A DNA stretch of 25,853 nt from a virus: IMG/VR virus record IMGVR_UViG_3300049846_000451, positions 1 to 25,853 of that record, one strand, 5' to 3'. The notes beneath the pieces are model-generated. The model did not search any database. It was not told the origin of the DNA and saw only the letters and a program-made list of their open reading frames with translations. The translations under genes and the position numbers were made by a program. Every line of letters starts with the position of its first letter. Position 1 is the first letter of the stretch. This document shows positions 10,342 to 25,698 of this stretch, piece by piece.

Positions 10342-10993
10342 TTTTTTGCTCCTGATCTGTTAAATCAGAACTTTTTACGGGGTTGCTATCCCGTGTATCA
10401 ATATAGAACCCTTCTCTTAGGTAATCTTCGTCGATTATAAACTCTAAATTATCAATTTTTTTAGATTCTTCTCCTTTCCAAATAGGAACAGCAACTGAAT
10501 TTCCGAATCTAAAGTCTGGATTCTGTCTAAAATGTACTTCTATCAGTCTTCCGCCAATAAATTCGCAGTTAATCCACTCATAATTACCTTTTAAACTATT
10601 TAATATAGATGGAAAATCAATATCAAGATCAATCTTAGACCATTTTTTCCATTTATATAATGGGTCTTGAGAATCCCTCTCTCCAATAACAACTAGTTTT
10701 GAATTTTTTTGAAAGAAGTCTACGCTTAAATGCTCTCCAGTAAAAATCTCACACCAAAATTCTGATGGGTGAAGATGATCCGTATACTTATCGATCCATT
10801 CTATACGAGAAAATCTTCCCATACCAAGTAAATTAATACTCGGTCTGACTATATAATGACCTGGATATGGAACAGGGCACCCTGTAGGTCCACAGAGATG
10901 ACCCAAACGACGATTTAGAAATAGCTTATTATAAACCCATAAATCGTTCTCATGTATTGAATTCCATTCGTCTACTGGGTCTGAGTAGTACAT
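10325..10993 (-). CDS. Conserved hypothetical protein next to the baseplate genes
   Basis: The protein has 222 residues and I do not recognise a domain with certainty. The central part has GPTGCPVPYPGHYIVRPSIN (about residues 35-54) followed by LLGMGRFSRIEWI, and many Trp and charged residues. The VRP-x-N-x-x-GMG stretch faintly recalls ATP-grasp nucleotide-binding strands, but the rest of that fold is not evident, so I do not call it one. The C-terminal 25 residues are polar and probably disordered. The gene overlaps its neighbours on both sides, which fits the late operon. Confidence 0.75.
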   Translation of the reverse strand: MYYSDPVDEWNSIHENDLWVYNKLFLNRRLGHLCGPTGCPVPYPGHYIVRPSINLLGMGRFSRIEWIDKYTDHLHPSEFWCEIFTGEHLSVDFFQKNSKLVVIGERDSQDPLYKWKKWSKIDLDIDFPSILNSLKGNYEWINCEFIGGRLIEVHFRQNPDFRFGNSVAVPIWKGEESKKIDNLEFIIDEDYLREGFYIDTRDSNPVKSSDLTDQEQKNDQTR

Positions 10994-14121: not shown

Positions 14122-14151
14122 ACTATAGGGACACTTTCAACGTCCCCCCTT
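14122..14151 (-). repeat. 30-base stem-loop element, copy 1 (divergent loop)
   Basis: Plus-strand ACTATAGGGACACTTT, then CAA, then CGTCCCCCCTT. On the transcribed strand it folds as a stem with a TGAAA loop. This copy has the most divergent variable triplet and lies 31 bases from the start codon at 14090 rather than abutting it. Confidence 0.9.
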
Positions 14152-14192
14152 CCTATTACTCAAGGGCTGAGAGTATAAACGAAGGGACGTAA

Positions 14193-14366
14193 TCACCAAC
14201 GATCAGGTGCATTTAGATCCTCAACGTAAGCATCACACTTCTCCGCAGGTTCCAACTCAAACAACTTCTCCCAGTCAATCTGATGCGGGTCGAAGTCACC
14301 GAACACTGATAGATCTAGAGTGATCCTATAACGCTGCTTCTGTGCTGACTGATAAGCAACTGACAT
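14193..14366 (-). CDS. Small protein of unknown function (57 residues)
   Basis: The product starts MSVAYQSAQKQRYRITLDLS and continues VFGDFDPHQIDWEKLFELEP. It is acidic in its C-terminal half and has no membrane segment. An AAGGAGC ribosome binding site lies 8 bases before the ATG, and the strongest promoter region of the window is just upstream. It is thus the first gene of the leftward unit that continues into element copy 1 and the 82-residue gene. Confidence 0.7.
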   Translation of the reverse strand: MSVAYQSAQKQRYRITLDLSVFGDFDPHQIDWEKLFELEPAEKCDAYVEDLNAPDRW

Positions 14367-14394
14367 AAGTACGCTCCTTGTGTGTTATGAGACT

Positions 14395-14423
14395 ATTGTA
14401 AATCTTCTGGGGATTTATGTCAA
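14395..14423 (-). promoter_or_regulatory. Leftward sigma70-type promoter
   Basis: On the minus strand TTGACA is followed after exactly 17 bases by TACAAT, a full -35 match and a -10 with one mismatch. It lies 29 bases before the ATG of the 57-residue gene, which also has an AAGGAGC site. This is probably an early promoter used by the host RNA polymerase. Confidence 0.8.
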
Positions 14424-14434
14424 GGTCTTGGGGG

Positions 14435-14442
14435 TATTTATT
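14435..14442 (-). promoter_or_regulatory. T4-type late promoter core
   Basis: The minus strand reads AATAAATA, containing ATAAATA. It lies just upstream of the leftward early promoter, so the small-gene unit at 13,418-14,366 may be transcribed both early and late. Several ATAAATCC-like sequences in the same 50 bases may be decayed copies. Confidence 0.5.
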
Positions 14443-14496
14443 TGGGGTCGGTGGATTTATGCGCGACATCTGTGGGGATTTGAAAACTCGGGAGTC

Positions 14497-14525
14497 TTGA
14501 CATTTTGGGAGAGTGCTGATACAAT
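14497..14525 (+). promoter_or_regulatory. Rightward sigma70-type promoter with no plus-strand gene behind it
   Basis: TTGACA, 17 bases, TACAAT on the plus strand: the same two hexamers and spacing as the leftward promoter at 14395-14423. No plus-strand protein gene follows, so the product would be an untranslated RNA or an antisense transcript into the minus-strand genes. Confidence 0.6.
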
Positions 14526-14564
14526 GCGGGCAAAGATCACAAGGTCTGGGCACATTTAAATGCC

Positions 14565-14646
14565 CATAAGTATCAGGTCTAGAAGGATTTAAAAGCACTA
14601 TAAACACAAGCACCAGAGACATTAAAAGGACATAAGTATCAGATCT
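14565..14646. repeat. Direct repeat of 16 bases, 66 bases apart
   Basis: CATAAGTATCAGGTCT at 14565-14580 and CATAAGTATCAGATCT at 14631-14646, one mismatch. The bases before each unit are also similar (ACATTTAAATG versus ACATTAAAAGG), so the similarity reaches nearly 30 bases. It lies downstream of the rightward promoter and may be a protein-binding site. Confidence 0.65.
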
Positions 14647-14679
14647 CAGATACACTTAGAGAGGCAATATATCAGTCTA

Positions 14680-14732
14680 ATTCTCAATAATACACCCTAT
14701 TGATTCTCAATAAACTAACACTTATTGAGAAT
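14680..14732. repeat. 11-base unit, two direct copies plus one inverted copy
   Basis: ATTCTCAATAA occurs at 14680-14690 and 14703-14713, and its exact reverse complement TTATTGAGAAT at 14722-14732. The last two form a perfect 11-base stem with an 8-base loop. It could be an operator array or an RNA hairpin made by the rightward promoter; no adjacent T-run makes it a clear terminator. Confidence 0.75.
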
Positions 14733-14816
14733 GAATTAAAACGCTCACATATATTTTTTAATACATTTTTAATTGATTTTTAACGTTTTTATGCTATAAA
14801 TCACTCAAATAAGCAT

Positions 14817-14841
14817 AAAAAAGGATGCTGATTAGGCATCC
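14817..14841 (-). terminator. Intrinsic terminator of the small-gene operon
   Basis: On the minus strand GGATGC, a 7-base loop and GCATCC are followed directly by six T residues. It lies 12 bases after the stop of the last gene in the unit that begins at element copy 2. A second inverted repeat (TTTTTATGCT at 14786-14795 and AGCATAAAAA at 14812-14821) overlaps its tail. Confidence 0.88.
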
Positions 14842-14852
14842 CTATACTATAC

Positions 14853-15074
14853 TCAATCAATCCCTAATCTGTACTGAGCATAACGTTTCGCATCCTTTCT
14901 TGACTTGAATCGGGCTAACTCACCATCGAATCTTAGCGGTTCAAACTTATACCTAACTTGATTCTTGTGTATAATCTTTCGACTGTAAAAGTACAGAGAG
15001 AATACACCTTCTGGAGAATGTTGCTTCTCTTTGTTGATAATGAACGGAAGATTAACTGTAGTGGGAGTGATCAT
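14853..15074 (-). CDS. Small protein of unknown function (73 residues), last in its operon
   Basis: The product starts MITPTTVNLPFIINKEKQHS and ends with a basic helix (RFKSRKDAKRYAQYRLGID). The middle is beta-like and aromatic. The basic C-terminus with KDAKRYAQYR resembles the end of small nucleic-acid-binding or integrase-arm-like folds, but this is too weak to name. The gap to the upstream gene is 18 bases and the terminator follows 12 bases after its stop. Confidence 0.7.
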   Translation of the reverse strand: MITPTTVNLPFIINKEKQHSPEGVFSLYFYSRKIIHKNQVRYKFEPLRFDGELARFKSRKDAKRYAQYRLGID

Positions 15075-15092
15075 GATTAGAGGTGATGAGTA

Positions 15093-15377
15093 TCAAATAG
15101 GGACTGAAGTTCCGACTCTTACTTGATTCAAACTATACTGAATGTATCCAAGTTCCTTGTTAGCATTAAAAGCATTTTTCCAATGAAAGTGTGCTTCAGG
15201 GCAGTTATGTATCCCATAATAGTAATACCTAACTGAACTCTTTCCAATACCTACTAGGTTTGAAATCTGTTCAGTATTGTATCCTTCCTTATACAGATTG
15301 TTGATCAGAGAGCATAAGTTTTGAGAATGTTGAGATGCTTTACAGAACGAAATTGGTGCTACAGTAGGATAGGTCAT
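15093..15377 (-). CDS. Putative helix-turn-helix DNA-binding protein (94 residues)
   Basis: Residues about 22-55 (LCSLINNLYKEGYNTEQISN followed by LVGIGKSSVRYYYYG) have the spacing of a homeodomain-like helix-turn-helix: a first helix, a second helix QISNLVG and a recognition helix KSSVRYYYYG. The N- and C-terminal parts lack known motifs. It may regulate phage or host genes. Its start overlaps the stop of the upstream gene by one base (TGATG), so translation is coupled. The call rests on pattern only. Confidence 0.65.
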   Translation of the reverse strand: MTYPTVAPISFCKASQHSQNLCSLINNLYKEGYNTEQISNLVGIGKSSVRYYYYGIHNCPEAHFHWKNAFNANKELGYIQYSLNQVRVGTSVPI

Positions 15378-15568
15378 CAGTTAGAAGGTGAGAGGTTGAT
15401 GAGAGTAATGATTTCAAGTTCGGTGATATTATTGTCGAAATGTTCTTCCCATTCCTTATACAAAGCATAAGACTCTTGAATGAGATCTTGTTCGACAAGA
15501 TGACAGATTTGAGATTGTACTTGCTCCAAGATAATTGCGAGCATTGAATCTTTTTGAGTGTTGGTCAT
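15377..15568 (-). CDS. Small acidic helical protein (63 residues)
   Basis: The product starts MTNTQKDSMLAIILEQVQSQ and continues as mostly amphipathic helix with many Glu, which suggests a protein-protein interaction module. It overlaps the next gene by one base and the previous by four (ATGA). Function unknown. Confidence 0.7.
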   Translation of the reverse strand: MTNTQKDSMLAIILEQVQSQICHLVEQDLIQESYALYKEWEEHFDNNITELEIITLINLSPSN

Positions 15569-15753
15569 TTTGCGTTGTCGATGAGATCTTGTTCAATCTG
15601 ATGAAGTGTGCTTACTGTCCAAACTTCTGGATTTGCATAACCTTTGTTCGAGTACAGTTGACTATATCGAAATCCATAAAGATCAGGATTTAGATCTTGC
15701 AACTTCTCAAGAGTTTCAGCAATCTGAACACTGATTTGGTGTTGGTAATTCAT
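15565..15753 (-). CDS. Small protein of unknown function (62 residues)
   Basis: The product starts MNYQHQISVQIAETLEKLQD and ends with a helix (TVSTLHQIEQDLIDNAK). The end shares the IEQDLI pattern with VEQDLI in the 63-residue neighbour, which hints that the two could be old duplicates, but the rest does not align well. Coupled on both sides by ATGA overlaps. Confidence 0.7.
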   Translation of the reverse strand: MNYQHQISVQIAETLEKLQDLNPDLYGFRYSQLYSNKGYANPEVWTVSTLHQIEQDLIDNAK

Positions 15754-15881
15754 TTAATCAATTCAGCAGGACTTCCACAAGAAATGTAGAATTGGATCAT
15801 GCGTTGTGCTTCATCAAGAGTAGAGAAACTTTGTGTCCTCCAGACTTGTTGATAAGGAGTGAAATAACGAATGGTGAACAT
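15750..15881 (-). CDS. Very small protein (43 residues), unknown function
   Basis: The product starts MFTIRYFTPYQQVWRTQSFS and continues TLDEAQRMIQFYISCGSPAE. The pattern of a beta hairpin then a helix resembles a small ferredoxin-like half-fold. It is coupled to both neighbours by a one-base (TGATG) and a four-base (ATGA) overlap, which supports it as a real gene despite its length. Confidence 0.65.
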   Translation of the reverse strand: MFTIRYFTPYQQVWRTQSFSTLDEAQRMIQFYISCGSPAELIK

Positions 15882-16024
15882 CACTTAAGAGGAACAGAAT
15901 GAGAGAACTTATGACCAGCAAGATTACCAAAGTTTTGTTTTCTTGCTTGGTATTCTGACCTTGCGAGGATAACCTTAATTTGGTCAGAGTTAGAGTCTTT
16001 CCAGATGAACTTTTTGAACGTCAT
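15881..16024 (-). CDS. Very small basic protein (47 residues)
   Basis: The product starts MTFKKFIWKDSNSDQIKVIL and continues ARSEYQARKQNFGNLAGHKF. It is basic and without membrane segments. Its ATG lies four bases after the stop of the upstream gene and its stop overlaps the next start (TGATG). The end of the upstream gene (GGAGGTTGA) provides a Shine-Dalgarno sequence. Function unknown. Confidence 0.65.
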   Translation of the reverse strand: MTFKKFIWKDSNSDQIKVILARSEYQARKQNFGNLAGHKFSHSVPLK

Positions 16025-16028
16025 TGAA

Positions 16029-16265
16029 TCAACCTCCACCATACACATGATCTACAACACCAGCAGCATAAAGATTCACACCTTCGATAACAGTGAACGT
16101 AGCATACTTGTCGAACTCTTCAGCGTGCCAATCGCTAAACTCTTTGATAAACAATTCGCGGCAGTGCTCTTTAGATTCAGCAGCGATAACGACCATTCCA
16201 GAGGTATAATCAGACAGGATGTTGTTGATGATGTAGAGATTCATTTGGGATTGCTTGTTGCTCAT
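16029..16265 (-). CDS. Small protein (78 residues), first gene after element copy 2
   Basis: The product starts MSNKQSQMNLYIINNILSDY and continues with VVIAAESKEHCRELFIKEFS, a strand-helix pattern. The element ends directly at the first ATG; a second in-frame Met at residue 8 (MNLYIINN) looks like an older start, so the first seven residues may have come with the element. It heads a chain of seven tightly coupled genes down to the terminator at 14,817. Function unknown. Confidence 0.75.
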   Translation of the reverse strand: MSNKQSQMNLYIINNILSDYTSGMVVIAAESKEHCRELFIKEFSDWHAEEFDKYATFTVIEGVNLYAAGVVDHVYGGG

Positions 16266-16295
16266 ACTATAGGGACACTTTGCGCGTCCCCCCTT
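16266..16295 (-). repeat. 30-base stem-loop element, copy 2
   Basis: Variable triplet GCG on the plus strand. Abuts the ATG at 16265 directly and begins nine bases after the stop codon of the 103-residue gene. Confidence 0.95.
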
Positions 16296-16303
16296 TGATT
16301 CAC

Positions 16304-16615
16304 TCAGTCAAGTTTGATGCCATTACCGAAAGGAACATTAACTTGATTAGTATAAACAATCCACTCAAAGTTTTTCTGGAAAATGTACTCTCCATTTCCA
16401 TGTGCTTGGAGAATAGCATTGAGGCGAGACTTGGTGGTGTTTGACTTATATCCACCATCAAACAATTCCAACCAAGTATCACCTACCATAGCGATCAGAT
16501 TGTTATACAGATAGACGAAAGATACACCTTCAATGTTGATGACTTGAGTGTTATCCTTTTTCCAATCAATCTCTTGAGAGATTGCTTGATTCATTTGACG
16601 TTCGATGACTCGCAT
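16304..16615 (-). CDS. Conserved phage protein with TKSRLNAIL motif (103 residues)
   Basis: The product starts MRVIERQMNQAISQEIDWKK and has a beta-rich core (VSFVYLYNNLIAMVGDTWLE) then NTTKSRLNAILQAHGNGEYI followed by FQKNFEWIVY. I recognise this arrangement from small hypothetical proteins in several phages and mobile elements; the function is not known to me. It stands alone between elements 3 and 2. The start lies 21 bases after element copy 3 with no Shine-Dalgarno sequence in the leader. A second Met at residue 8 is an alternative start. Confidence 0.75.
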   Translation of the reverse strand: MRVIERQMNQAISQEIDWKKDNTQVINIEGVSFVYLYNNLIAMVGDTWLELFDGGYKSNTTKSRLNAILQAHGNGEYIFQKNFEWIVYTNQVNVPFGNGIKLD

Positions 16616-16636
16616 TGTGGGAAGCGTTGTGGTTAT

Positions 16637-16666
16637 ACTATAGGGACACTTTGGGCGTCCCCCCTT
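16637..16666 (-). repeat. 30-base stem-loop element, copy 3
   Basis: Variable triplet GGG. Begins eight bases after the stop of the 51-residue gene and lies 21 bases from the start codon at 16615, so it is one of four copies that do not abut an ATG. Confidence 0.95.
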
Positions 16667-16674
16667 TGATTCAG

Positions 16675-16830
16675 TTAAGCAATTTGATTGAGCATTGATT
16701 CTAAAGTCTGACCTAGTTTCTTAACTTCATCAGGACTAATGTGTTCATGATATTCACTTAACTTATGTCCATACATATCAACCAACCAGAGAAGATCGGA
16801 GAGATTGTCTTCAGAAAGAATAGGTGTCAT
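16675..16830 (-). CDS. Very small acidic protein (51 residues)
   Basis: The product starts MTPILSEDNLSDLLWLVDMY and continues GHKLSEYHEHISPDEVKKLG, two amphipathic helices joined by a turn. It follows the 95-residue gene by 12 bases and precedes element copy 3. Function unknown. Confidence 0.65.
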   Translation of the reverse strand: MTPILSEDNLSDLLWLVDMYGHKLSEYHEHISPDEVKKLGQTLESMLNQIA

Positions 16831-16842
16831 TTGTGTTAGAAA

Positions 16843-17130
16843 TCAGTTGCGAAAAGCGCCGAGAAGGTTAAACTTGGTCCAGATCTCTTTGTATGCGATA
16901 CGCTTACCGTCGATCTGGAAAGTATAACGGAGCGAACCTTTTACAGTCTTGGAAACTTTACAGGTTAGGCAAATCTCACCAGTGCGAGTGCCATTCAAAT
17001 CATACTTTGCGAAGTAATGATGACAAACTCCATCGAGACGATAATCAACAACTCCATTGCGTTGCTGATAGTTTTCGAGAGCAAGTTGCTCAGAGAGTTT
17101 GATGGAATCGAGAAGGTCGTTGGTGTTCAT
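16843..17130 (-). CDS. Small protein with a CxxC pair (95 residues), first gene after element copy 4
   Basis: The product starts MNTNDLLDSIKLSEQLALEN, a helix, then a beta-rich part with CHHYFAKYDL and EICLTCKVSK. One CxxC plus the CHH group could bind a metal, but a full zinc-finger pattern is not present. The element abuts its ATG. Function unknown. Confidence 0.7.
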   Translation of the reverse strand: MNTNDLLDSIKLSEQLALENYQQRNGVVDYRLDGVCHHYFAKYDLNGTRTGEICLTCKVSKTVKGSLRYTFQIDGKRIAYKEIWTKFNLLGAFRN

Positions 17131-17160
17131 ACTATAGGGACACTTTGCGCGTCCCCCCTT
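17131..17160 (-). repeat. 30-base stem-loop element, copy 4
   Basis: Variable triplet GCG. It begins immediately after the stop codon at 17161 and ends at the ATG at 17130, so it fills the whole gap between the two genes. Confidence 0.95.
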
Positions 17161-17301
17161 TCATTCAACAACCATCCACTCTCCATCAACAACACAAAAC
17201 TCAGACAAATAATAATCAACACTTAACCCAAGTTTCTGTGCTTCAGGATAGACTTGATCGTATTGTTCTTGGGAAAGAATGAAGAAATTAGTCTCAATCA
17301 T
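17161..17301 (-). CDS. Very small acidic protein (46 residues)
   Basis: The product starts MIETNFFILSQEQYDQVYPE and continues AQKLGLSVDYYLSEFCVVDG. The LSQEQYDQVYPEA stretch recalls LTQDQYDKLLANY in the 72-residue protein encoded at 17704. The ATG overlaps the last eight bases of the upstream gene; the stop is followed at once by element copy 4. Confidence 0.65.
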   Translation of the reverse strand: MIETNFFILSQEQYDQVYPEAQKLGLSVDYYLSEFCVVDGEWMVVE

Positions 17302-17443
17302 TGGGTTGAATAATGTCTGCTACAGTGTGTAAAGTCTGGGCTGTGATGTCACGAACTCCAGGTGAAAGTATAAACGCGACAGTGAAAATGAGTAGAATTG
17401 TTTTCACTTGGAATGGACTCTTGAGTGTTAGTCTCCGTGCCAT
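17294..17443 (-). CDS. Small single-pass membrane or exported protein (49 residues)
   Basis: The product has a basic N-terminus (MARRLTLKSPFQVK), a hydrophobic stretch TILLIFTVAFILSPGV (residues about 15-30), then a polar tail. This could be a membrane anchor or a signal peptide. Its ATG overlaps the stop of the upstream gene (TGATG). Function unknown. Confidence 0.65.
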   Translation of the reverse strand: MARRLTLKSPFQVKTILLIFTVAFILSPGVRDITAQTLHTVADIIQPND

Positions 17444-17673
17444 CAATCATAGCGGGAAGAAATGTCAGGACCAGGATTCTCAAGATGTGCGACACTCGCA
17501 GCAACACCTTCAGCAGTTAGCGCAAACTGTACTTTCTGTCCTTCATAGTAAATGTCAAAGACAGATTGAACATAAGGTGTCAGATTGCCTTGAGAATCCC
17601 AGGCATTGCGTGTATGTGAAGTCTCAACGATTTGGTAGACTTTAGAGGTGAGAGGTGAAGTGTAGGTCATCAT
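17443..17673 (-). CDS. Small protein (76 residues), first gene after element copy 5
   Basis: The product starts MMTYTSPLTSKVYQIVETSH and is beta-rich with a helical C-terminal part (LTAEGVAASVAHLENPG). Two ATG codons follow the element directly; the second (17670) is the natural-looking start, and the first appears to be supplied by the element, as also seen at copy 10. Function unknown. Confidence 0.7.
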   Translation of the reverse strand: MMTYTSPLTSKVYQIVETSHTRNAWDSQGNLTPYVQSVFDIYYEGQKVQFALTAEGVAASVAHLENPGPDISSRYD

Positions 17674-17703
17674 ACTATAGGGACACTTTGGGCGTCCCCC
17701 CTT
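17674..17703 (-). repeat. 30-base stem-loop element, copy 5
   Basis: Variable triplet GGG. It fills the gap exactly between the stop at 17704 and the ATG at 17673. Confidence 0.95.
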
Positions 17704-17922
17704 TCATTCAACAACTGATTGAATCATGCCATTCACATCATCCTCATCATAGAATTGACTAATCTCTTCAATCAATTCATCAGGTGTAGAACAACTCTCA
17801 CGCAGGTTTTGTTCTAACATATCTGATGCGAATTGAATCAAACTATCGAGATCCATTCCATCTACAATCTGCTCGATGTAGTTGGCAAGGAGTTTATCGT
17901 ATTGGTCTTGAGTGAGGTCCAT
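17704..17922 (-). CDS. Small acidic helical protein (72 residues)
   Basis: I choose the ATG at 17922 (MDLTQDQYDKLLANYIEQIV), since the open frame further upstream is the out-of-frame shadow of the 44-residue gene. It is a strongly acidic helical protein (DLDSLIQFASDMLEQNL, then DELIEEISQFYDEDD). The DELIEEISQFY end closely matches DELIDEIADFF at the end of the 58-residue protein at 18675, so the two are probable paralogues. Function unknown; acidic mimicry or protein binding is possible. Confidence 0.7.
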   Translation of the reverse strand: MDLTQDQYDKLLANYIEQIVDGMDLDSLIQFASDMLEQNLRESCSTPDELIEEISQFYDEDDVNGMIQSVVE

Positions 17923-17923
17923 T

Positions 17924-18058
17924 TTACTTACAATAGTTGGGGTCAATTTGGCAGAACTTTTCTGCTTGCGATTCTTGATACTCATTCACTGTAGCGATTG
18001 CTTGAGTACCAACTGAAATACCAAAGAAAAGTGTAGTAATCAGAAAAGCAATTCTCAT
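17924..18058 (-). CDS. Very small exported protein with signal peptide and two cysteines (44 residues)
   Basis: The product starts MRIAFLITTLFFGISVGTQA, a typical signal peptide with a likely cleavage after TQA or AIA, leaving about 22 residues (TVNEYQESQAEKFCQIDPNY) ending CK. The two cysteines (residues 36 and 43) could form a disulfide in the periplasm or join a partner. It starts in the stop codon of the 66-residue gene (ATGA) and ends one base before the next ATG. Function unknown. Confidence 0.65.
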   Translation of the reverse strand: MRIAFLITTLFFGISVGTQAIATVNEYQESQAEKFCQIDPNYCK

Positions 18059-18255
18059 TTCAAAATGTGGCGATAATCAATGGATTTAATACACCAACCT
18101 GTTGCGGCAGTGATCTCTTCGATTAGATCTTCTTCATCATCTGCCTCCCAAATCATACCGATTGTTTCATCGGTAATATTACTAAACTGATGCTCTGGGA
18201 AATCATCATCAGCATCATCAAAATCAAATTCAATTTCAGTAACTTGGAACAGCAT
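18055..18255 (-). CDS. Small acidic conserved protein ending TGWCIKSIDYRHIL (66 residues)
   Basis: The product starts MLFQVTEIEFDFDDADDDFP, is very acidic, and ends with the strand ATGWCIKSIDYRHILK. Short proteins with a (T/A)TGW-x-(V/I)KSI(D/E) ending recur in T4-like cyanophages; none has a known role to me. The gap to the upstream gene is two bases. Confidence 0.7.
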   Translation of the reverse strand: MLFQVTEIEFDFDDADDDFPEHQFSNITDETIGMIWEADDEEDLIEEITAATGWCIKSIDYRHILK

Positions 18256-18257
18256 AA

Positions 18258-18428
18258 TCAGTCAACAACAGAATAACAAGCGACAGAGGAAGGAATACCG
18301 CTTAAAGATAACGAACCGTTGCGGGAATCGCAATAATCTTGGGCATCATCTTCAGAGTAGAAAGGTCCAATATACTCGGGAGAATTGAGTGCGTTGGAAT
18401 CGAATCGGACGGTGTAAGTGTTAGTCAT
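18258..18428 (-). CDS. Small protein (56 residues), first gene after element copy 6
   Basis: The start is the ATG at 18428 (MTNTYTVRFDSNALNSPEYI), which abuts the element; a longer open frame upstream is only the translated element. The pattern is a strand, then GPFYSEDDAQDYCDSRN, a strand-helix layout found in small proteins that relay a data-like sequence repeat. Function unknown. Confidence 0.75.
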   Translation of the reverse strand: MTNTYTVRFDSNALNSPEYIGPFYSEDDAQDYCDSRNGSLSLSGIPSSVACYSVVD

Positions 18429-18458
18429 ACTATAGGGACACTTTGAGCGTCCCCCCTT
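18429..18458 (-). repeat. 30-base stem-loop element, copy 6
   Basis: Variable triplet GAG. Abuts the ATG at 18428 and begins five bases after the stop of the 59-residue gene. Confidence 0.95.
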
Positions 18459-18462
18459 TGAA

Positions 18463-18642
18463 TCACATACCGTTGATGAAGTCAGCAAGTGCTTCCTTGT
18501 ATTCTGCTTCAGTCTGATAAATGCGACCGTGAATGTTAAGAGGAAACTGCTTTTTCACTCCAGCAACTGCTACAGTTTGGCAGTCTTTCTCATCATAACC
18601 CATTTCGATGAGGTTTTGAACGTAGGGATTGTAATGTGTCAT
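18463..18642 (-). CDS. Small protein of unknown function (59 residues)
   Basis: The product starts MTHYNPYVQNLIEMGYDEKD and continues CQTVAVAGVKKQFPLNIHGR. The middle (VAVAGVKKQFPLNIHG) looks like a beta strand pair. The gene follows the 58-residue gene by 32 bases without a visible strong ribosome binding site, and ends next to element copy 6. Confidence 0.65.
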   Translation of the reverse strand: MTHYNPYVQNLIEMGYDEKDCQTVAVAGVKKQFPLNIHGRIYQTEAEYKEALADFINGM

Positions 18643-18674
18643 TTTGTGGTAATTTAGTGGGAAATCAGTTTGTA

Positions 18675-18851
18675 TCAGTTAGCGAAGAAGAAATCAGCGA
18701 TTTCATCAATCAACTCATCAGTCGCAGAGATGTCGAACTTTTCACAGATAAAGTCTACACAATCGTTGAGATCTGCGTTTTCAAAATCATTCATGAAACC
18801 GATCAATTCGGCAGTCAGTTCGAGGTCAAGGGTCATTGGAGTTGTGCTCAT
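18675..18851 (-). CDS. Small acidic protein (58 residues), first gene after element copy 7
   Basis: The product starts MSTTPMTLDLELTAELIGFM and ends ISATDELIDEIADFFFAN. It is acidic and helical and resembles the 72-residue protein at 17704 in its last 15 residues. The first five codons (MSTTP) match those of the 155-residue gene at 20825 (MSTTE), and the similarity runs into the adjoining element, which suggests the extension was copied with the element. Met6 (MTLDLEL) is the likely older start. Confidence 0.7.
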   Translation of the reverse strand: MSTTPMTLDLELTAELIGFMNDFENADLNDCVDFICEKFDISATDELIDEIADFFFAN

Positions 18852-18881
18852 ACTATAGGGACACTTTAGGCGTCCCCCCTT
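18852..18881 (-). repeat. 30-base stem-loop element, copy 7
   Basis: Variable triplet AGG, shared only with copy 9. Abuts the ATG at 18851 and begins four bases after the stop of the 47-residue gene. Confidence 0.95.
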
Positions 18882-18885
18882 TCTA

Positions 18886-19029
18886 TCACTTAAAACTTAC
18901 GTCCACACCAACAACCTTTGCCTTAGGATTGCGGGATAGAGCAGTCTCTCGCGCATCTTTTGGGTTGGTTGCTTGTACTTCTTCGTTGAAGACTTTGCCA
19001 CCAACATATAATTGAACGATGTACTTCAT
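18886..19029 (-). CDS. Very small basic protein (47 residues)
   Basis: The product starts MKYIVQLYVGGKVFNEEVQA and continues TNPKDARETALSRNPKAKVV. This beta-hairpin, helix, strand layout is a common small phage fold (strand, GGK turn, strand, DARETAL helix). It overlaps the stop of the 53-residue gene by four bases (ATGA). Function unknown. Confidence 0.7.
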   Translation of the reverse strand: MKYIVQLYVGGKVFNEEVQATNPKDARETALSRNPKAKVVGVDVSFK

Positions 19030-19187
19030 ACAGAGGGATTAACAGAGATTTCTTTGATGTTTAGACCACAGAGTTGATTGTAGACGCGATTGAGTATCAG
19101 TTTGTCCGCAGTCTTTGCTTTGGATTTCTCATACCAAACCGTCACACATCCATCGTTAGTTTCAACCATCACGCGATAGTTTTTCAT
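19026..19187 (-). CDS. Small basic protein (53 residues)
   Basis: The product starts MKNYRVMVETNDGCVTVWYE and continues KSKAKTADKLILNRVYNQLC. It has the same strand, turn, strand, helix layout as its downstream neighbour and could be an old relative. It starts two bases after the stop of the 52-residue gene. Function unknown. Confidence 0.7.
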   Translation of the reverse strand: MKNYRVMVETNDGCVTVWYEKSKAKTADKLILNRVYNQLCGLNIKEISVNPSV

Positions 19188-19189
19188 AC

Positions 19190-19348
19190 TCAATCGTCTC
19201 CAAAGTTGTTAGCAAGAAAGTCCTCAAGTTCAGTGAGTTTGCTCTCACTTAGGTTCCAAACATACTCACTGATGATAGTATCGAAAAGGTCAACATCTTC
19301 ACGACACTTTTCTTTCAAAAACCACTCAAGTTCAGTTCGGTTAGTCAT
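19190..19348 (-). CDS. Small acidic protein (52 residues)
   Basis: The product starts MTNRTELEWFLKEKCREDVD and continues LFDTIISEYVWNLSESKLTE. It is acidic and helical, ending DFLANNFGDD. The ATG lies six bases after the stop of the 73-residue gene. Function unknown. Confidence 0.7.
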   Translation of the reverse strand: MTNRTELEWFLKEKCREDVDLFDTIISEYVWNLSESKLTELEDFLANNFGDD

Positions 19349-19354
19349 AATCAA

Positions 19355-19576
19355 TCAGTAAAGAGGGCAGAAAGTTCCACACCAACCGCGAACCCAATTT
19401 AGAGTTTCGGCGTAGGAAGTGCGGGGTTTCGACATAGGCATCGAAACATTCTTTTCGGGATTGTAAGCAATAGCGACAAACTTGTCTTCTACTTGCTGAA
19501 TCCACATTTGATTCACTTTACCTTCTTTCCAGTTTGTGTGATAGTGGTAGACTTGATCCATGATAGTGTCGTTCAT
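19355..19576 (-). CDS. Small protein (73 residues), first gene after element copy 8
   Basis: The product starts MNDTIMDQVYHYHTNWKEGK, with a beta-rich middle and an aromatic C-terminal part (SYAETLNWVRGWCGTFCPLY). The element abuts the first ATG; Met6 (MDQVYHYH) may be the older start. Two Cys lie near the C-terminus. Function unknown. Confidence 0.7.
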   Translation of the reverse strand: MNDTIMDQVYHYHTNWKEGKVNQMWIQQVEDKFVAIAYNPEKNVSMPMSKPRTSYAETLNWVRGWCGTFCPLY

Positions 19577-19606
19577 ACTATAGGGACACTTTGAGCGTCC
19601 CCCCTT
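19577..19606 (-). repeat. 30-base stem-loop element, copy 8
   Basis: Variable triplet GAG. Abuts the ATG at 19576 and begins five bases after the stop of the 164-residue gene. Confidence 0.95.
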
Positions 19607-19610
19607 CGCA

Positions 19611-20105
19611 TCACTTAACAGATTTCACTTGTTCTGGTGTTGCTGGAGCATCAAATCCCTTTTTGATTTCATCACCTTTCACAAACCCAATTCCGCCAGC
19701 AAGAATAGCAAGGGCAAGCACAATCGCTGCCTTTCCATGTCCACTATCATCATCCCTGTTAGTGTAATCATCTACGGATTGTCCTGTAATCTTTTCACCA
19801 ATCCAAGCACCAGCAGCGCCACCTAAACCCATCAAAATCCAGGGAGTAAATGACATAAATGCCCAACCAATAGCTACCAATCCGATTAAACCAACTGCGC
19901 CAGCACTATCACCCAAATCAACACCAGAAGAGTCAGAAGAATCGGAAGAACGATTACTTACTTGGCGAAGATTTGTGATCTGCTGAACATCACCATGCTT
20001 AGCATAGATTTGTTGCTTTGCTCCGCTAAAAGTTGCTGCTTCAACTTGTGTACTAATCCTCCCAACTTGAGAATTAACGAATACGTCTGCTTTCCAAGTT
20101 GCCAT
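19611..20105 (-). CDS. Membrane protein with glycine-rich helices (164 residues)
   Basis: The ATG at 20105 (MATWKADVFVNSQVGRISTQ) overlaps the stop of the upstream gene (TAATG); a TTG two codons upstream is less likely. The soluble N-terminal part of about 45 residues is followed by a Ser/Asp linker (SNRSSDSSDSSG) and three hydrophobic stretches: AVGLIGLVAIGWAFMSF, WILMGLGGAAGAWIG and AAIVLALAILAGGIGFV. The Gly/Ala-rich GGAAGAWIG pattern is typical of glycine-zipper membrane segments, which are found in holin-like and pore-forming proteins. A membrane role is clear; a lysis role is only possible. Confidence 0.75.
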   Translation of the reverse strand: MATWKADVFVNSQVGRISTQVEAATFSGAKQQIYAKHGDVQQITNLRQVSNRSSDSSDSSGVDLGDSAGAVGLIGLVAIGWAFMSFTPWILMGLGGAAGAWIGEKITGQSVDDYTNRDDDSGHGKAAIVLALAILAGGIGFVKGDEIKKGFDAPATPEQVKSVK

Positions 20106-20359
20106 TACCAAGTACCTCTTTGAATGTGGATTTTACGGATTTCAGAATAAATGAAGCGTTGAAGTTTAGGGTCGGTAGTGTTATCAAAAGCATAATAGAG
20201 CCGATTCAGATAATCATTCTGTGTTGCTCCTATGCTACCATCACCACCAAGATCATTGAGTGAAGAACCTGCCTTCGATTTGGGTTTTCCAAAGTTGCCA
20301 GTGATGTTGCCCTGTGTCCTCAGTTTAGGACGAATCTTTGAGAGATTTGAGTATGTCAT
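20105..20359 (-). CDS. Small basic protein (84 residues)
   Basis: The product starts MTYSNLSKIRPKLRTQGNIT, has a Gly/Ser-rich flexible middle (KAGSSLNDLGGDGSIGATQ) and a helical end (YLNRLYYAFDNTTDPKLQRF). It overlaps the upstream zinc-ribbon gene by four bases (ATGA) and the downstream membrane protein gene by one. Function unknown. Confidence 0.7.
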   Translation of the reverse strand: MTYSNLSKIRPKLRTQGNITGNFGKPKSKAGSSLNDLGGDGSIGATQNDYLNRLYYAFDNTTDPKLQRFIYSEIRKIHIQRGTW

Positions 20360-20562
20360 CGGGGAAACTTGTGCTTACAATCAGGACACAACCAGTGGTT
20401 GATTCGGTCTTCATGGAGCAACTCAACTCCTATCACACGACTATAGAAATAGGGAGGAGAATAGCGATCCCAGAGTTCTTCAGGGATGAGTTTATCAACC
20501 CAGTTAGCACCACATTCAGGACAGTTCTCAAGAGTTGCTATGTCAGTGTAAGAATATGTCAT
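20356..20562 (-). CDS. Zinc-ribbon protein (68 residues)
   Basis: Two CxxC knuckles, CPEC at residues about 14-17 and CPDC at residues about 59-62, frame a 40-residue insert with WVDKLIPEELWDRYSPPYF. Four cysteines at this spacing indicate a structural zinc site. Such small zinc ribbons often bind nucleic acid or host polymerase parts, but no partner can be read here. Coupled on both sides by ATGA overlaps. Confidence 0.75.
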   Translation of the reverse strand: MTYSYTDIATLENCPECGANWVDKLIPEELWDRYSPPYFYSRVIGVELLHEDRINHWLCPDCKHKFPR

Positions 20563-20825
20563 CTTGCGATAATGTCCAACGATTCCAACAGCATCAGTGC
20601 AAGTTCAAATTGATTATCATCATCAACCACAGGAATGTTATTATCAACAAACTCAGAAGCAAGATCATGCAAAAGAGAGGTCATTCGCTCATCAGCATAG
20701 GCAAAGGTCGCAAAATCACTCTTGAAACCATCACGCAGAAGACGCAGAGATCTTGTAGTTGTGAGATCTTTAATTTCTTGTTGGTAGTCAGTCATTTGAG
20801 GAAAGTGTTGGGTTTGAAGATACAT
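20559..20825 (-). CDS. Small acidic protein (88 residues, or 78 from an internal start)
   Basis: Two starts are plausible: the ATG at 20825, which overlaps the upstream stop (TGATG) like most pairs in this region, or the ATG at 20795 (MTDYQQEIKDLTTTRSLRLL), which reads more like a natural N-terminus. No Shine-Dalgarno sequence decides it. The protein is helical and acidic at the end (VVDDDNQFELALMLLESLDI). Function unknown. Confidence 0.65.
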   Translation of the reverse strand: MYLQTQHFPQMTDYQQEIKDLTTTRSLRLLRDGFKSDFATFAYADERMTSLLHDLASEFVDNNIPVVDDDNQFELALMLLESLDIIAR

Positions 20826-21292
20826 CAACGCTGATAAAGATAACCACCAGACCAGTCGGCATTTTCCAGCAACCATTCACGATCTTTAATCAATCGCAGA
20901 TCATAACGAACACCTTTTGCTGGTGCTTTCCAAGATGCAGACTTATACACTTCACCAGTCTTTTTATCTACAAAAGCATGAACAGAACGAGAACCATTTG
21001 CGTTCATAATGATTTTGTGATACTTTCTACCAGTCTCAGGGTAGAAATCATAATCACAAGTTCCCTGCTTTAGTTTAGCAATCGCTTCTTGATGATGCTT
21101 AACACCACCTTCATCACGATAGCAACCAAGAGAGCGTTCGTGTTGGCGAATCGAGTAATCAATAAAGTTCTGACGCAGTGCTTCACACAAAGCATAGGTA
21201 TGTGCTAGAACAGCATTAGCAATGTTTTGTTTTGCTTGAGCAGAAGCAGCGTATTCTGCGAAGGTAATGGTGGTCATTTCAGTTGTGCTCAT
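20825..21292 (-). CDS. Conserved phage protein with VYKSASWKAPAKGVRYDL motif (155 residues)
   Basis: The start is the ATG at 21292 next to element copy 9; a longer open frame upstream is the translated element. The N-terminal 70 residues are helical (AEYAASAQAKQNIANAVLAH). The C-terminal half has GSRSVHAFVDKKTGEVYK followed by SASWKAPAKGVRYDL, a pattern I know from conserved phage hypothetical proteins across many hosts, with function unknown. The first five codons (MSTTE) match the 58-residue gene after copy 7. Met6 (MTTITFAEY) is the likely older start. Confidence 0.75.
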   Translation of the reverse strand: MSTTEMTTITFAEYAASAQAKQNIANAVLAHTYALCEALRQNFIDYSIRQHERSLGCYRDEGGVKHHQEAIAKLKQGTCDYDFYPETGRKYHKIIMNANGSRSVHAFVDKKTGEVYKSASWKAPAKGVRYDLRLIKDREWLLENADWSGGYLYQR

Positions 21293-21322
21293 ACTATAGG
21301 GACACTTTAGGCGTCCCCCCTT
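21293..21322 (-). repeat. 30-base stem-loop element, copy 9
   Basis: Variable triplet AGG. Its first bases are part of the TAA stop of the nucleotidyltransferase gene (21321-21323), and it ends at the ATG at 21292, so there is no spare base between the two genes. Confidence 0.95.
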
Positions 21323-22241
21323 ACCAACTCTTTGCGATTGTAAAGTTGGCGTGAGAGAATACCTCACGATCAACTACCTTGAAAGTGCCAAACTGGTTGA
21401 CAATCACATAACCCTCGTGGAAGGATTGAACGTCCCAAAGATAACACTCAATTTCATCCTTCTCGTGAATGAACAGGAACAAATCATCCTTGATAGACTT
21501 AACCAACTTCCACAAACGGATCAGGTTCTTATCACAATCACATTTTTCTGCGATTTCATCTTCATCAATGATCCTTTGCTCCCTGACACAGGCATTGATC
21601 TCTTTTTTGATTTGTGATGCTTTCTTTTCACCAACAAACTCACATAGAGTGCTCATTTGCTTGGCAAACTTACAAACATCTTCCAAATCTTCACGATAAG
21701 GATTCAGTTCCACCTCAGGTTGGACAAACAGGCAATGCTTAGTGCTGATGAGTTTGCTAGTCAGAGGGCTAGCAATCATCTCACGAATGTCATCAGAACC
21801 GCTGTAGATTGTGTGCGGAGCAATGATAATGTCCTGGCGAACTGGCGCAGGGAACTTATAGGTAATCGTGTTGGGAGTGAAAGTATCCAAACCTCCACCA
21901 AAACCAATCCAATCACCTTGAAGAACTTGTTTAGTGCGAGGCAGGAAATCCAGGCAGAAGATGAGGATTTGAGTTACACGAGGTTGTCCACCGAAATGGG
22001 TGAAGATGTCATCCTCGTTATAGCAAAGGCGAATCTTTTTCTTATTAAATGCTGCTTTCGTACAAACAAAAAACTTACCATTCTGAGGATTTGTACCCCA
22101 GACAATAGCAGGAGCACCATCCATCTTGATGCTGATGGTAGAATCTACCTCAGAAAACCAATCAAGAACAGAGAGATCTCCAGTCAGGATAGAATCTTCG
22201 GGATGCTCTAAGTGTTTGTTTTGCATTTGCTTGGTCATCAT
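21321..22241 (-). CDS. KxDG nucleotidyltransferase, RNA/DNA ligase-like
   Basis: The protein has 306 residues and three motifs of covalent nucleotidyltransferases (ligases and capping enzymes) in order. Motif I is KMDG at 39-42 (SIKMDGAPAIVWG), whose Lys39 would carry the AMP or GMP. Motif III is in the region of QGDWIGFG (108-115). Motif IV is EGYVI at 276-280, and motif V is the Lys288 region TFKVVDR. The opening NKHLEHPEDSILTG resembles a conserved family of uncharacterised proteins in T4-like cyanophages (I believe DUF6267, not verified). A 100-residue helical insert (170-260) lies between III and IV. The substrate is unknown. It follows element copy 10 and stands alone as a unit. Confidence 0.75.
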   Translation of the reverse strand: MMTKQMQNKHLEHPEDSILTGDLSVLDWFSEVDSTISIKMDGAPAIVWGTNPQNGKFFVCTKAAFNKKKIRLCYNEDDIFTHFGGQPRVTQILIFCLDFLPRTKQVLQGDWIGFGGGLDTFTPNTITYKFPAPVRQDIIIAPHTIYSGSDDIREMIASPLTSKLISTKHCLFVQPEVELNPYREDLEDVCKFAKQMSTLCEFVGEKKASQIKKEINACVREQRIIDEDEIAEKCDCDKNLIRLWKLVKSIKDDLFLFIHEKDEIECYLWDVQSFHEGYVIVNQFGTFKVVDREVFSHANFTIAKSW

Positions 22242-22271
22242 ACTATAGGGACACTTTGGGCGTCCCCCCTT
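22242..22271 (-). repeat. 30-base stem-loop element, copy 10
   Basis: Variable triplet GGG. It abuts the double ATG at 22241 and lies nine bases downstream of the T-run of an intrinsic terminator. Confidence 0.95.
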
Positions 22272-22280
22272 TGAATCGAC

Positions 22281-22304
22281 AAAAAAAGGGACTCATCGAA
22301 TCCC
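22281..22304 (-). terminator. Intrinsic terminator just upstream of element copy 10
   Basis: On the minus strand GGGATTC, loop GAT, GAGTCCC form a seven-pair stem (one G-U pair), followed directly by seven T residues. It lies ten bases after the stop of the 81-residue gene. The next gene begins only 40 bases beyond, so that gene needs either read-through or a promoter inside the element. Confidence 0.85.
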
Positions 22305-22314
22305 CAAATCCACA

Positions 22315-22560
22315 TTAGTTAGTGGCATACTTAGCACTGACTTGCTGATACTTTTCAGTTAGAAAGTCAAGAGCATTTTTTACATAAGGAGCTACAGTTT
22401 GAGTGAAGTTCCTTACATCTTCCACCAGTTTGTTGACTTCATACTGATGGATTTGCCAGCGAACCTTAATGTCTTGGAAGTATTGATCCCGAGTAATCAG
22501 AACTTGGGGGACAGACACTTCAGCAACAACATTTGCGGTTTGCTTGCGAGCGCGAGGCAT
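22315..22560 (-). CDS. Small helical protein (81 residues)
   Basis: The product has a basic N-terminus (MPRARKQTANVVAEVSVPQV) and then one long amphipathic helix (YEVNKLVEDVRNFTQTVAPY and onward to the end), suggesting a coiled coil or protein-binding helix. It is flanked by element copy 11 upstream, with an 18-base leader and no Shine-Dalgarno sequence, and by a terminator downstream. It is therefore likely to end its transcript. Function unknown. Confidence 0.7.
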   Translation of the reverse strand: MPRARKQTANVVAEVSVPQVLITRDQYFQDIKVRWQIHQYEVNKLVEDVRNFTQTVAPYVKNALDFLTEKYQQVSAKYATN

Positions 22561-22578
22561 AGAGTGGATGCGTCTTAC

Positions 22579-22608
22579 ACTATAGGGACACTTTGCGCGT
22601 CCCCCCTT
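22579..22608 (-). repeat. 30-base stem-loop element, copy 11
   Basis: Variable triplet GCG. Its first base is the last base of the methyltransferase stop codon (TAA at 22608-22610); it lies 18 bases before the ATG at 22560 and does not abut it. Confidence 0.95.
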
Positions 22609-23489
22609 TACTTCATTGAGAGAATCAATGGATTATCTTCACTTTCCTGGGATACAGTTTCTTCACATCTTTTCGTAGCAATGTCAACATAGTGCTGAGA
22701 CAAATCAATACCGATAAACTCTCTTGACTGTTGAATTGCTGCGACTCCTGTACTCCCACTCCCACAAAAAGGATCGAGAACTGTACCGCCAGGAGGACAA
22801 TAGATCTTGATCAAATACTCCATCAAACTTACAGGTTTTACTGTAGGATGATCATTATCTGCCCCCTTTTCTTTCCTGGTTGCGCGTGGAGCATAGAAAT
22901 ACTTTTGATGCTCTGGTTCTACCTCACCGATGATGTTGGAAGGATAACGACCAGCAGGATTAGCGTCCACAGTGCCATACTCAGCACCGCTACCTTTAGT
23001 GTTTCCATCCTTACCAAATGTACGACGTTTAGCACCCTGAGCAACCCAACCTGTAGGAGGTTTCTTATCCCAAGGAACGCGGGTGTTTTCTGTATCAATC
23101 AACCCACATCCCCACTGCTCAAAGTTAGATTGTAAAGAACCTTTGTACGGTTTTTGTGCTACTACAATCGGTTCATGTGCTGGTTTCAAACGATTAAACT
23201 TTGGCATCTTTGTGGTGGTCATCCACATGATTTGGTCCTTGATTGTGAAACCAGCATCCTCTACATTACATGCCAGTCGATGATACAATTCAGGAGAACA
23301 AAAAGCTAAACAAAAGGCACCTGGGCGAAGTGTACGAAACACCTCACTCCAGATGCTAACATCAGGAACAGAATGATCCCAGTGATCCATACCCATACCG
23401 TAGGGAGGATCGGTGATACAAGAATGAAAAAAGTTCTCCCCATAACTGGAGAGAACATCCTGACAATTACCAGTCGAAATTGAGAACAT
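22608..23489 (-). CDS. DNA methyltransferase, N4/N6 type, beta class
   Basis: The ATG at 23489 gives 293 residues (MFSISTGNCQDVL); the open frame upstream of it is a shadow of the nuclease gene. Motif IV is DPPY at 27-30 (TDPPYGMGMDHWD), motif I is the C-terminal DPFCGSGSTG (239-248), followed by GIDLSQHY (260-267) for cofactor binding, and HPTVKP at 214-219 precedes it. Motif IV before motif I defines the beta class, which methylates adenine N6 or cytosine N4. LKPAHEPIVVAQKP (101-114) matches many phage enzymes. It starts inside the nuclease gene (23-base overlap), so the pair is one unit: the methyltransferase probably protects phage DNA from that nuclease or from host enzymes. Confidence 0.9.
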   Translation of the reverse strand: MFSISTGNCQDVLSSYGENFFHSCITDPPYGMGMDHWDHSVPDVSIWSEVFRTLRPGAFCLAFCSPELYHRLACNVEDAGFTIKDQIMWMTTTKMPKFNRLKPAHEPIVVAQKPYKGSLQSNFEQWGCGLIDTENTRVPWDKKPPTGWVAQGAKRRTFGKDGNTKGSGAEYGTVDANPAGRYPSNIIGEVEPEHQKYFYAPRATRKEKGADNDHPTVKPVSLMEYLIKIYCPPGGTVLDPFCGSGSTGVAAIQQSREFIGIDLSQHYVDIATKRCEETVSQESEDNPLILSMK

Positions 23490-23997
23490 TAGATTCACAT
23501 TGTTTGCGCTTAGAGTGCTTGAAATAGTCTTTCTTTCCAGCACCTGTTTGTGTGTACATGTTGCGAATGTAGAAGTCAAAACCCCTATCATCCTCTTGCC
23601 ATTCTTCCTCCAGTTGATACACTTTCAGAACAGAATTGAGTTCCTCTACAAGTTTAGAGTAGAGTTCCCTTTTCTTCTCAGAGACTACATCATCAGCGAA
23701 GAATACAGTAGTTTCATTATACCTCTTACTGCTGAAGATGTAAACAACACCTTCTTTAGGAAGTCCGCCATTGTAGGTGGGATAGGTATTTTTAGAAGAC
23801 TTACATTCAATGTCAACAACTCGACCGTTCGGGAGAGTTACACGGAAATCAGGAGATTGCTGAGGTCCGTTAGGTTGCCACACATAATTGAATCCATACT
23901 TGTCAAGAAGTTCACGGACTTGTTGTTCGTGAAGGGGATTATCTTGACTGTTAGACTTATAGGGAAGTTGGAGAACTTCCTGCCAAAAAGATTTCAT
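23467..23997 (-). CDS. PD-(D/E)XK nuclease, candidate restriction endonuclease
   Basis: The ATG at 23997 gives 176 residues (MKSFWQEVLQLPYKSNS). The catalytic motif is Pro49-Asp50, then Glu64-Cys65-Lys66 (SPDFRVTLPNGRVVDIECKS), a classical PD-x(13)-ExK, with a preceding helix carrying Glu24. The following GGLPKEGVVYIFSSKRYNET and DDVVSEKK fit a type II restriction-type fold. It partly overlaps a beta-class methyltransferase gene, the usual sign of a restriction-modification pair. No controller protein gene is present, and the nuclease precedes the methyltransferase, which is risky without control. A perfect hairpin lies seven bases before its start codon. A phage recombination or DNA-degradation nuclease is the alternative. 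Confidence 0.72.
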   Translation of the reverse strand: MKSFWQEVLQLPYKSNSQDNPLHEQQVRELLDKYGFNYVWQPNGPQQSPDFRVTLPNGRVVDIECKSSKNTYPTYNGGLPKEGVVYIFSSKRYNETTVFFADDVVSEKKRELYSKLVEELNSVLKVYQLEEEWQEDDRGFDFYIRNMYTQTGAGKKDYFKHSKRKQCESNVLNFDW

Positions 23998-24004
23998 AGT
24001 TTCT

Positions 24005-24021
24005 CTTACGCTTTGCGTAAG
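24005..24021 (-). promoter_or_regulatory. Hairpin next to the nuclease start codon
   Basis: CTTACGC, AAA, GCGTAAG: a perfect seven-base stem with a three-base loop ending seven bases before the ATG at 23997. There is no good Shine-Dalgarno sequence apart from GTAAGAG in and next to the stem, so the hairpin may limit ribosome access and keep nuclease output low. Confidence 0.6.
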
Positions 24022-24062
24022 TTGAAGTGATAGTGGAGTCTTTAAGGCGCTGCCGTTCCTAC

Positions 24063-24092
24063 ACTGTAGGGACACTTTGGGCGTCCCCCCTT
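24063..24092 (-). repeat. 30-base stem-loop element, copy 12 (variant)
   Basis: The only copy with ACTGTAGGG instead of ACTATAGGG; variable triplet GGG. The change makes a perfect CCTACA-C-TGTAGG inverted repeat (24058-24070) at its 3' edge. It starts two bases after the stop of the 57-residue gene and is 65 bases from the nuclease ATG. Confidence 0.9.
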
Positions 24093-25669: not shown

Positions 25670-25698
25670 ATTATAGCACCCTTCCAGGCGATTGTAGA
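25670..25698 (-). promoter_or_regulatory. Extended -10 promoter of the helicase gene
   Basis: On the minus strand TCTACA, 17 bases, TATAAT, with TG one base before the -10 (TGCTATAAT). The -35 matches at four of six positions and the -10 is perfect. A leader of about 35 bases would follow before the ATG at 25628, which lacks a clear Shine-Dalgarno sequence. Confidence 0.75.

Follow-up and report, generated by a model that had tools for sequence, protein, structure and literature searches.

Accessory region and repeated element

The DNA analyzed here (the window) is the 25,853-nucleotide stretch at positions 1 to 25,853 of IMG/VR virus record IMGVR_UViG_3300049846_000451, in which a 10-kb region of accessory genes between positions 14,122 and 24,092 is divided by a 30-bp intergenic element. 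Gene order runs from a helicase gene through this hypervariable block to gp25 (9659–10060) and gp6 (7730–9658), and the window was judged to derive from a T4-like cyanophage on the basis of gp25 similarity, DNA matches to Synechococcus phages and the gene order in S-SM2. The 12 copies of the element reported in the initial annotation were all re-found on the plus strand in a single orientation, 11 of them exact outside a variable triplet and that at 24063 carrying a single change, with an expected number of zero in 100 dinucleotide-preserving shuffles of the window. The genes of the element region are all encoded on the minus strand; the plus-strand pattern must therefore be reverse-complemented to give its functional reading, and in this gene sense the element is AAGGGGGGACG-NNN-AAAGTGTCCC-TATAGT, usually followed by RTRASCAC (the 30-bp form may also be written AAGGGGGGACG-NNN-AAAGTGTCCCTATAGT). 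No further copies were found in the rest of the 25.9-kb record and, as initially described, the structural block below 14122 contains none.

The copies had been described as in most cases filling the whole gap between genes and as separating mini-operons. The upstream stop codon ends -2 to +8 nt from the element in 10 of the 12 copies and an ATG directly abuts it in eight, although gaps of 43 and 41 nt lie upstream of the copies at 22242 and 14122, the former containing an intrinsic terminator. The division into mini-operons is supported overall; however, the interval 16266–14122 is not a single operon because a terminator (14843–14821) and a textbook sigma70 promoter (14423–14395) precede its last gene. 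Coordinates are collected in Table 1.

Table 1. Copies of the repeated element and associated features of the window
Feature	Coordinates	Strand	Remarks
Element copy 1	24063..24092	-	Single variant, TACAGT; next start codon 65 nt downstream
Element copy 2	22579..22608	-	Overlaps stop codon of DNA methylase (PF01555); next start 18 nt downstream
Element copy 3	22242..22271	-	Before DUF6267; just downstream of intrinsic terminator; abutting ATG
Element copy 4	21293..21322	-	Before DUF7717; overlaps DUF6267 stop codon; abutting ATG
Element copy 5	19577..19606	-	Abutting ATG
Element copy 6	18852..18881	-	Abutting ATG
Element copy 7	18429..18458	-	Abutting ATG is sole start codon of downstream gene
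Element copy 8	17674..17703	-	Abutting ATG
Element copy 9	17131..17160	-	Abutting ATG is sole start codon of downstream gene
Element copy 10	16637..16666	-	Next start 21 nt downstream
Element copy 11	16266..16295	-	Abutting ATG
Element copy 12	14122..14151	-	Next start 31 nt downstream
Intrinsic terminator, GGGGATTCGATGAGTCCCT then T-run	22287..22305	-	Directly upstream of element copy 3
DUF6267 gene	21321..22241	-	Marker gene for comparing upstream regions among phages
DUF7717 gene	20825..21292	-	Second marker gene
Canonical sigma70-type promoter, TTGACA-17-TACAAT	14395..14423	-	Serves small gene 14193–14366; a contrast, outside the element family
Sigma70-like promoter, TCTACA-17-TATAAT	25670..25698	-	Before helicase gene, at upstream edge of region

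Nearly constant 3' part and genome-specific 9-bp module

When IMG/VR was scanned for exact matches to the element as it occurs in the window, 50 stretches were returned, and in all of those inspected the element was in gene sense. The best match in an isolate was S-SM2, which has GGGGGGTCG where the window has GGGGGGACG. In SynMITS9220M01 the downstream half is the same as the window's whilst the upstream half, GTTACTCACC, is unrelated; this sharing of one half only indicated a two-part element, and the downstream half alone was therefore searched for with the G-run excluded, giving 97 stretches. About 300 related copies were found, in T4-like cyanophages (Kyanoviridae), with a nearly constant 3' part. 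The upstream 9-mers form a small set (GGGGGGACG, TTACTCACC, TTAGTTACC, TTAGTAACC, ACTGAAGCC, ACTGAGGCT, ACTGAGCCA, ACTGGGCCC, ACTGTCTCG, TTAGTWACC and others), and in all module types 13 bp separate the end of the 9-mer from TATAGT, the free triplet lying in between. More distant forms are present in S-B05 (ATTACTCACC...AAATGTCCACTATAGT) and in Prochlorococcus phage P-TIM68 (GTTAGTWACCTCTAAATTGA...TANTAAT-R). When whole genomes were searched with two patterns, matches lay upstream of genes and in gene sense within one 10–15 kb region, S-B05 having another short block in addition; matches to the short pattern elsewhere were weak, isolated and at control level, and copies were restricted to the accessory region upstream of gp25. 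In relatives the element is kept at the same genes (DUF6267 and DUF7717). A host repeat, a possibility raised in the initial annotation, is ruled out by the single orientation and by the constant part having no match among the genomes of 84,980 prokaryote species.

The module follows the genome, not the gene. Module identity between copies within loci was 90%, compared with 49% (maximum 54%) when copies were shuffled among loci, and at DUF6267, a gene present in nearly all these phages, at least 32 module changes were required on a tree of 77 genes. DUF6267 of the window (GGGGGGACG) shares 84% DNA identity with its counterparts in L118 (TAGCTCACC) and L106 (ACTGGGCCC). Closer pairs also differ, the genes of L038 and L082 being 94% identical with modules GGGGGGACG and TTACTCACC, and those of L010 and L102 91% identical with modules GGGGGGACG and ACTGAGGCT. 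In each contig compared, most other copies bear the local module, and the stretch between module and gene likewise has genome dialects (CCTAGTAGT in L043, ACCAGTAGT in L106). Exceptions are few: the gene starting MNTPNWKHNS has GGGGGGACG in L043, L049 and L118, whose resident modules are TTACTCACC or TAGCTCACC. Single foreign-module copies inside genomes of another module type were seen in L043, L049, L118 and L106, and such copies are apparently immigrants, their genes having been recently transferred together with their own element. Such concerted change of the module at a dozen sites, with flanking sequence that nevertheless remains tied to the gene, would be the pattern expected if a trans-acting factor read the module.

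Evidence for a probable promoter

Where the element is absent, DUF6267 is preceded by a sigma70-type -10 sequence, usually with a TGC extension (TGCTATAAT in Syn9, TGCTATACT in ACG-2014f, TGCTAAAAT in S-PM2 and TACAAT in ACG-2014j), such that element and sigma70-type promoter replace one another at the same gene. Intrinsic terminators lie within approximately 45–80 nt upstream of 10 of the 300 copies, including the window copy before DUF6267, and a gene directly behind a terminator needs a transcription start inside or beside the element. TATAGT itself matches TATAAT at five of six positions, and there is no sigma70 -35. Not apparent to the initial annotation, which saw no early promoter within the element, was that the element read on the minus strand is itself a promoter-like unit whose 5' nine bases form a phage-specific module.

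From these comparisons of sequence we lean towards the element being a phage promoter used by the host RNA polymerase together with a phage-lineage-specific factor that reads the module at about -35. Each copy would start transcription of its unit of one to several genes. The 3' half (AAAGYGT...TATAGT, then R-T-R-A) would serve as the DNA-opening and start region for the host polymerase, whilst the 5' nine bases would be a recognition module bound by the trans-acting factor in place of a -35 contact; as the specificity of the factor drifted, every copy in a genome would change to match. Transcripts might begin approximately 7 nt past TATAGT, as in ordinary -10 geometry, or at the purine immediately following it, in which case the messenger RNA (mRNA) would be leaderless when that purine begins an ATG.

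Start codons and transcription start

The base after TATAGT (position 17) was a purine in 200 of 200 copies unselected for it, and position 19 is linked to position 17, with ATG or GTA favoured over ATA and GTG (p = 5e-19). Among 87 non-redundant cases with an ATG abutting TATAGT, this ATG shared the reading frame of the gene in 75 and was clearly in another frame in three. Start codons lie at offset 0 or mostly at least 15 nt downstream (mostly 15–50 nt), and copies not followed by ATG also prefer offsets divisible by three. In L066 and L089, genes with the abutting ATG as sole start codon lie behind an element with a terminator upstream; in L066 this gene is DUF6267. Loss of the ATG through ordinary -10 geometry seems implausible for DUF6267 in L066 and similar phages, and for such genes either transcription starts at the purine, producing a leaderless mRNA, or expression occurs via terminator read-through. 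Some mRNAs may hence lack leaders. In ACG-2014j and S-CAM3 (L163, L177) several early-type promoters have their -10 followed, after exactly 6 nt, by an ATG (TATTGT-ATACAC-ATG), a spacing that suggests leaderless mRNAs also in cyanophages without the element.

Several observations weigh against a promoter of the kind favoured here. The first two bases of TATAGT vary by genome dialect (AATAGT, AGTAGT, TGTAGT) and P-TIM68 has only ANTAAT at this position, such that adherence to a canonical -10 is not strict. If TATAGT functioned as an ordinary -10, RNA would begin approximately 7 nt downstream and the abutting ATG would be left untranscribed, and yet this ATG is the sole start codon in 13 of 241 non-redundant cases, including DUF6267 of most such phages. 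The genes concerned are small accessory genes, unlike the gene set of T4 middle promoters. Finally, no regulator gene was identified: gene-presence profiles left too many genes eligible, since the element-bearing isolates form a clade, and the candidates listed looked unlike DNA-binding proteins.

Alternative explanations

An unusual promoter, at which a non-standard polymerase or sigma factor starts exactly at the purine after TATAGT to give leaderless or short-leader mRNAs, would account for the invariant purine and its linkage with position 19 (A..G or G..A), for start codons at offset 0 or mostly from 15 up, and for the ATG-only genes behind terminator-preceded elements in L066 and L089. 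We nevertheless consider it unlikely, as bacterial RNA polymerase requires approximately 6–8 nt from the -10 to the start and the frame preference of non-ATG copies means that part of the frame signal may reflect read-through mRNAs. Single-subunit T7-type RNA polymerase (PF00940) was unmatched in 10 genomes or records, a weak argument given that the control search was equally empty. The antisense strand of the element reads ACTATAGGGACAC (window plus strand, for example 22242–22254), close to the T7 promoter core; this likeness is probably a coincidence, and a T7-type promoter is considered unlikely, as no polymerase gene was found (the control being empty) and P-TIM68 is without the motif.

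A role of the element in the mRNA itself, where it would direct processing or act as a translational operator separating the cistrons of long transcripts, appears quite improbable. It would fit the abutment of stop and start codons, and the retention of the following ATG in frame (75 of 87, against three), which places the element in translated mRNA; in addition, the G-run type can form a hairpin (-13 kcal/mol) and may be Shine-Dalgarno-like. However, most module types form no hairpin: fold z-scores were about 0 to +1.7 in six module types and -0.9 to -2.1 in G-run types only, and conserved base pairing across relatives was not seen, six module types scoring about 0 or positive. Rfam gave no match to the element. 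Start codons at 0 or mostly 15–50 nt are not at ribosome-binding distance, and a transcription start is favoured by the upstream terminators and by the sigma70-type promoters that relatives have at this position. An RNA hairpin or terminator as the general function is ruled out by the non-folding module types, although it is plausible for the G-run type alone. A mini open reading frame, GTG-TCC-CTA-TAG, ending just before the gene start was also rejected because S-SM2 reads GCG there.

A mobile or selfish dispersed repeat, recently spread and with no regulatory role, would explain the high identity of copies and the few foreign-module copies resembling immigrants carried with a gene (L043, L049, L118, L106), but is very improbable given the fixed orientation and pre-gene position, retention at orthologous genes of diverged phages, concerted module changes, and the lack of copies elsewhere in whole phage genomes or in prokaryote genomes.

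Candidate regulators and neighbouring genes

A small gene encoding 57 amino acids (14193–14366, minus strand) adjoins copy 12 and is present in 17 phage records, those with the element among them, and in many element-bearing contigs. Its relatives are usually preceded by TTGACA, a TATAAT-like -10, GGAG and an upstream ATAAATA motif, and its product is probably an immediate-early protein. An exclusive link between this gene, as regulator, and the element was ruled out: the gene is also present in Bellamy, where the link would predict elements, but Bellamy has the host-type cassettes described below in their place. Between a terminator and the sigma70 promoter of this gene lies an AT-rich non-coding stretch (14556–14646) containing two imperfect 25-bp direct repeats (TTAAA...CATAAGTATCAGRTCT), 66 bp apart. 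The gene before gp25 (10325–10993, minus strand) is named PurM in many cyanophages and 'transcriptional regulator' in Sf-CH8 (L165 1-165), and its window copy gave no Pfam match. An HNH endonuclease gene (PF13392; 12668–13213, minus strand) is also located near the element region.

Implications

No description of the element was found in openly accessible papers, although an earlier mention is possible in the cyanophage transcriptome or PeSL (promoter-stem-loop cassette) literature. Cyanomyoviruses have been reported to lack motA and asiA homologues, leaving early and middle control an open question (PMC2984593), to which the element would offer a concrete answer for one large cyanophage group. 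We put forward only tentatively, and with more doubt than the promoter assignment itself, the wider proposal that marine T4-like cyanophages share one promoter backbone carrying an exchangeable 9-bp code word, for which a fast-diversifying phage-encoded factor would be the reader, all copies switching together, related phages being mutually orthogonal and some transcripts leaderless. The rapid genome-wide switching of modules suggests a regulator coevolving with a dozen or more sites, and the code words suggest a fast-changing candidate viral control protein behind them. Promoter specificity among T7-like phages is a known parallel for such coevolution of regulator and sites. Related phages with different modules would then be orthogonal in gene activation. 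Promoter annotation would become possible in hundreds of environmental cyanophage contigs and, since modules are genome-specific, they could be of use in placing contigs within phage groups and in recognizing genes transferred recently.

Comparison with known systems

T4 middle promoters combine a MotA box with a sigma70 -10 and depend on sigma appropriation by AsiA and MotA. Similarly, the element has a phage-specific box in place of a -35, here 13 bp before a TATA-like hexamer, compared with 12 ± 1 bp between MotA box and -10 in T4 (PMC2988021). However, the MotA box consensus wwwTGCTTtA is unmatched by the modules (GGGGGGACG, TTACTCACC, ACTGAAGCC and others), the box of the element changes between close relatives, some genomes are less strict at the -10, and the genes that follow are not the replication and nucleotide-metabolism set. 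A MotA-like role at replication genes is unsupported by the location of the element in whole genomes.

The likeness to PeSLs of T4-type phages noted in the initial annotation (PeSL features being taken in part from PMC4503421) extends to layout, both being regulatory units placed between genes at many boundaries of the hyperplastic region, and possibly to behaviour, as genes appear to move together with the element in the case of foreign-module copies. It does not extend to anatomy: most copies are without a terminator stem (a terminator lies upstream in 10 of 300), there is no complete sigma70 early promoter (no -35, only TATAGT) and the 5' module is genome-specific.

Host-type early cassettes (Syn9, S-RIM2, ACG-2014b, ACG-2014f, Bellamy) occupy the same genome region and precede partly the same genes. 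In L172-L178 and L258 (ACG-2014f, S-RIM2, ACG-2014b, Syn9, Bellamy and others) the repeated cassette consists of a GTGNCAGTT...AACTGNCAC inverted repeat, often a terminator, and then GTGTATTNTATAAGAGTCAAAGGAA before the ATG. Many cassettes hold CAGTTG...AAGTGTCCACTAT, resembling the element core AAA(G)TGTCC(A)CTAT, with which AAGTGTCCACTAT is shared, but have a TATAAG/TATTCT-type -10 further downstream and leaders with AAAGGAA, whereas the element of the window forms a compact unit of 30 bp. Halovirus HF2 also has repeated intergenic sequences between gene groups, which were identified as promoters by reporter assays (PMC8707807); these are archaeal TATA/BRE promoters of unrelated sequence, and no phage-specific interchangeable module is described there. 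The element resembles PeSL cassettes in layout and possibly behaviour and T4 middle promoters in geometry, whilst departing from both in some of the defining features tested.

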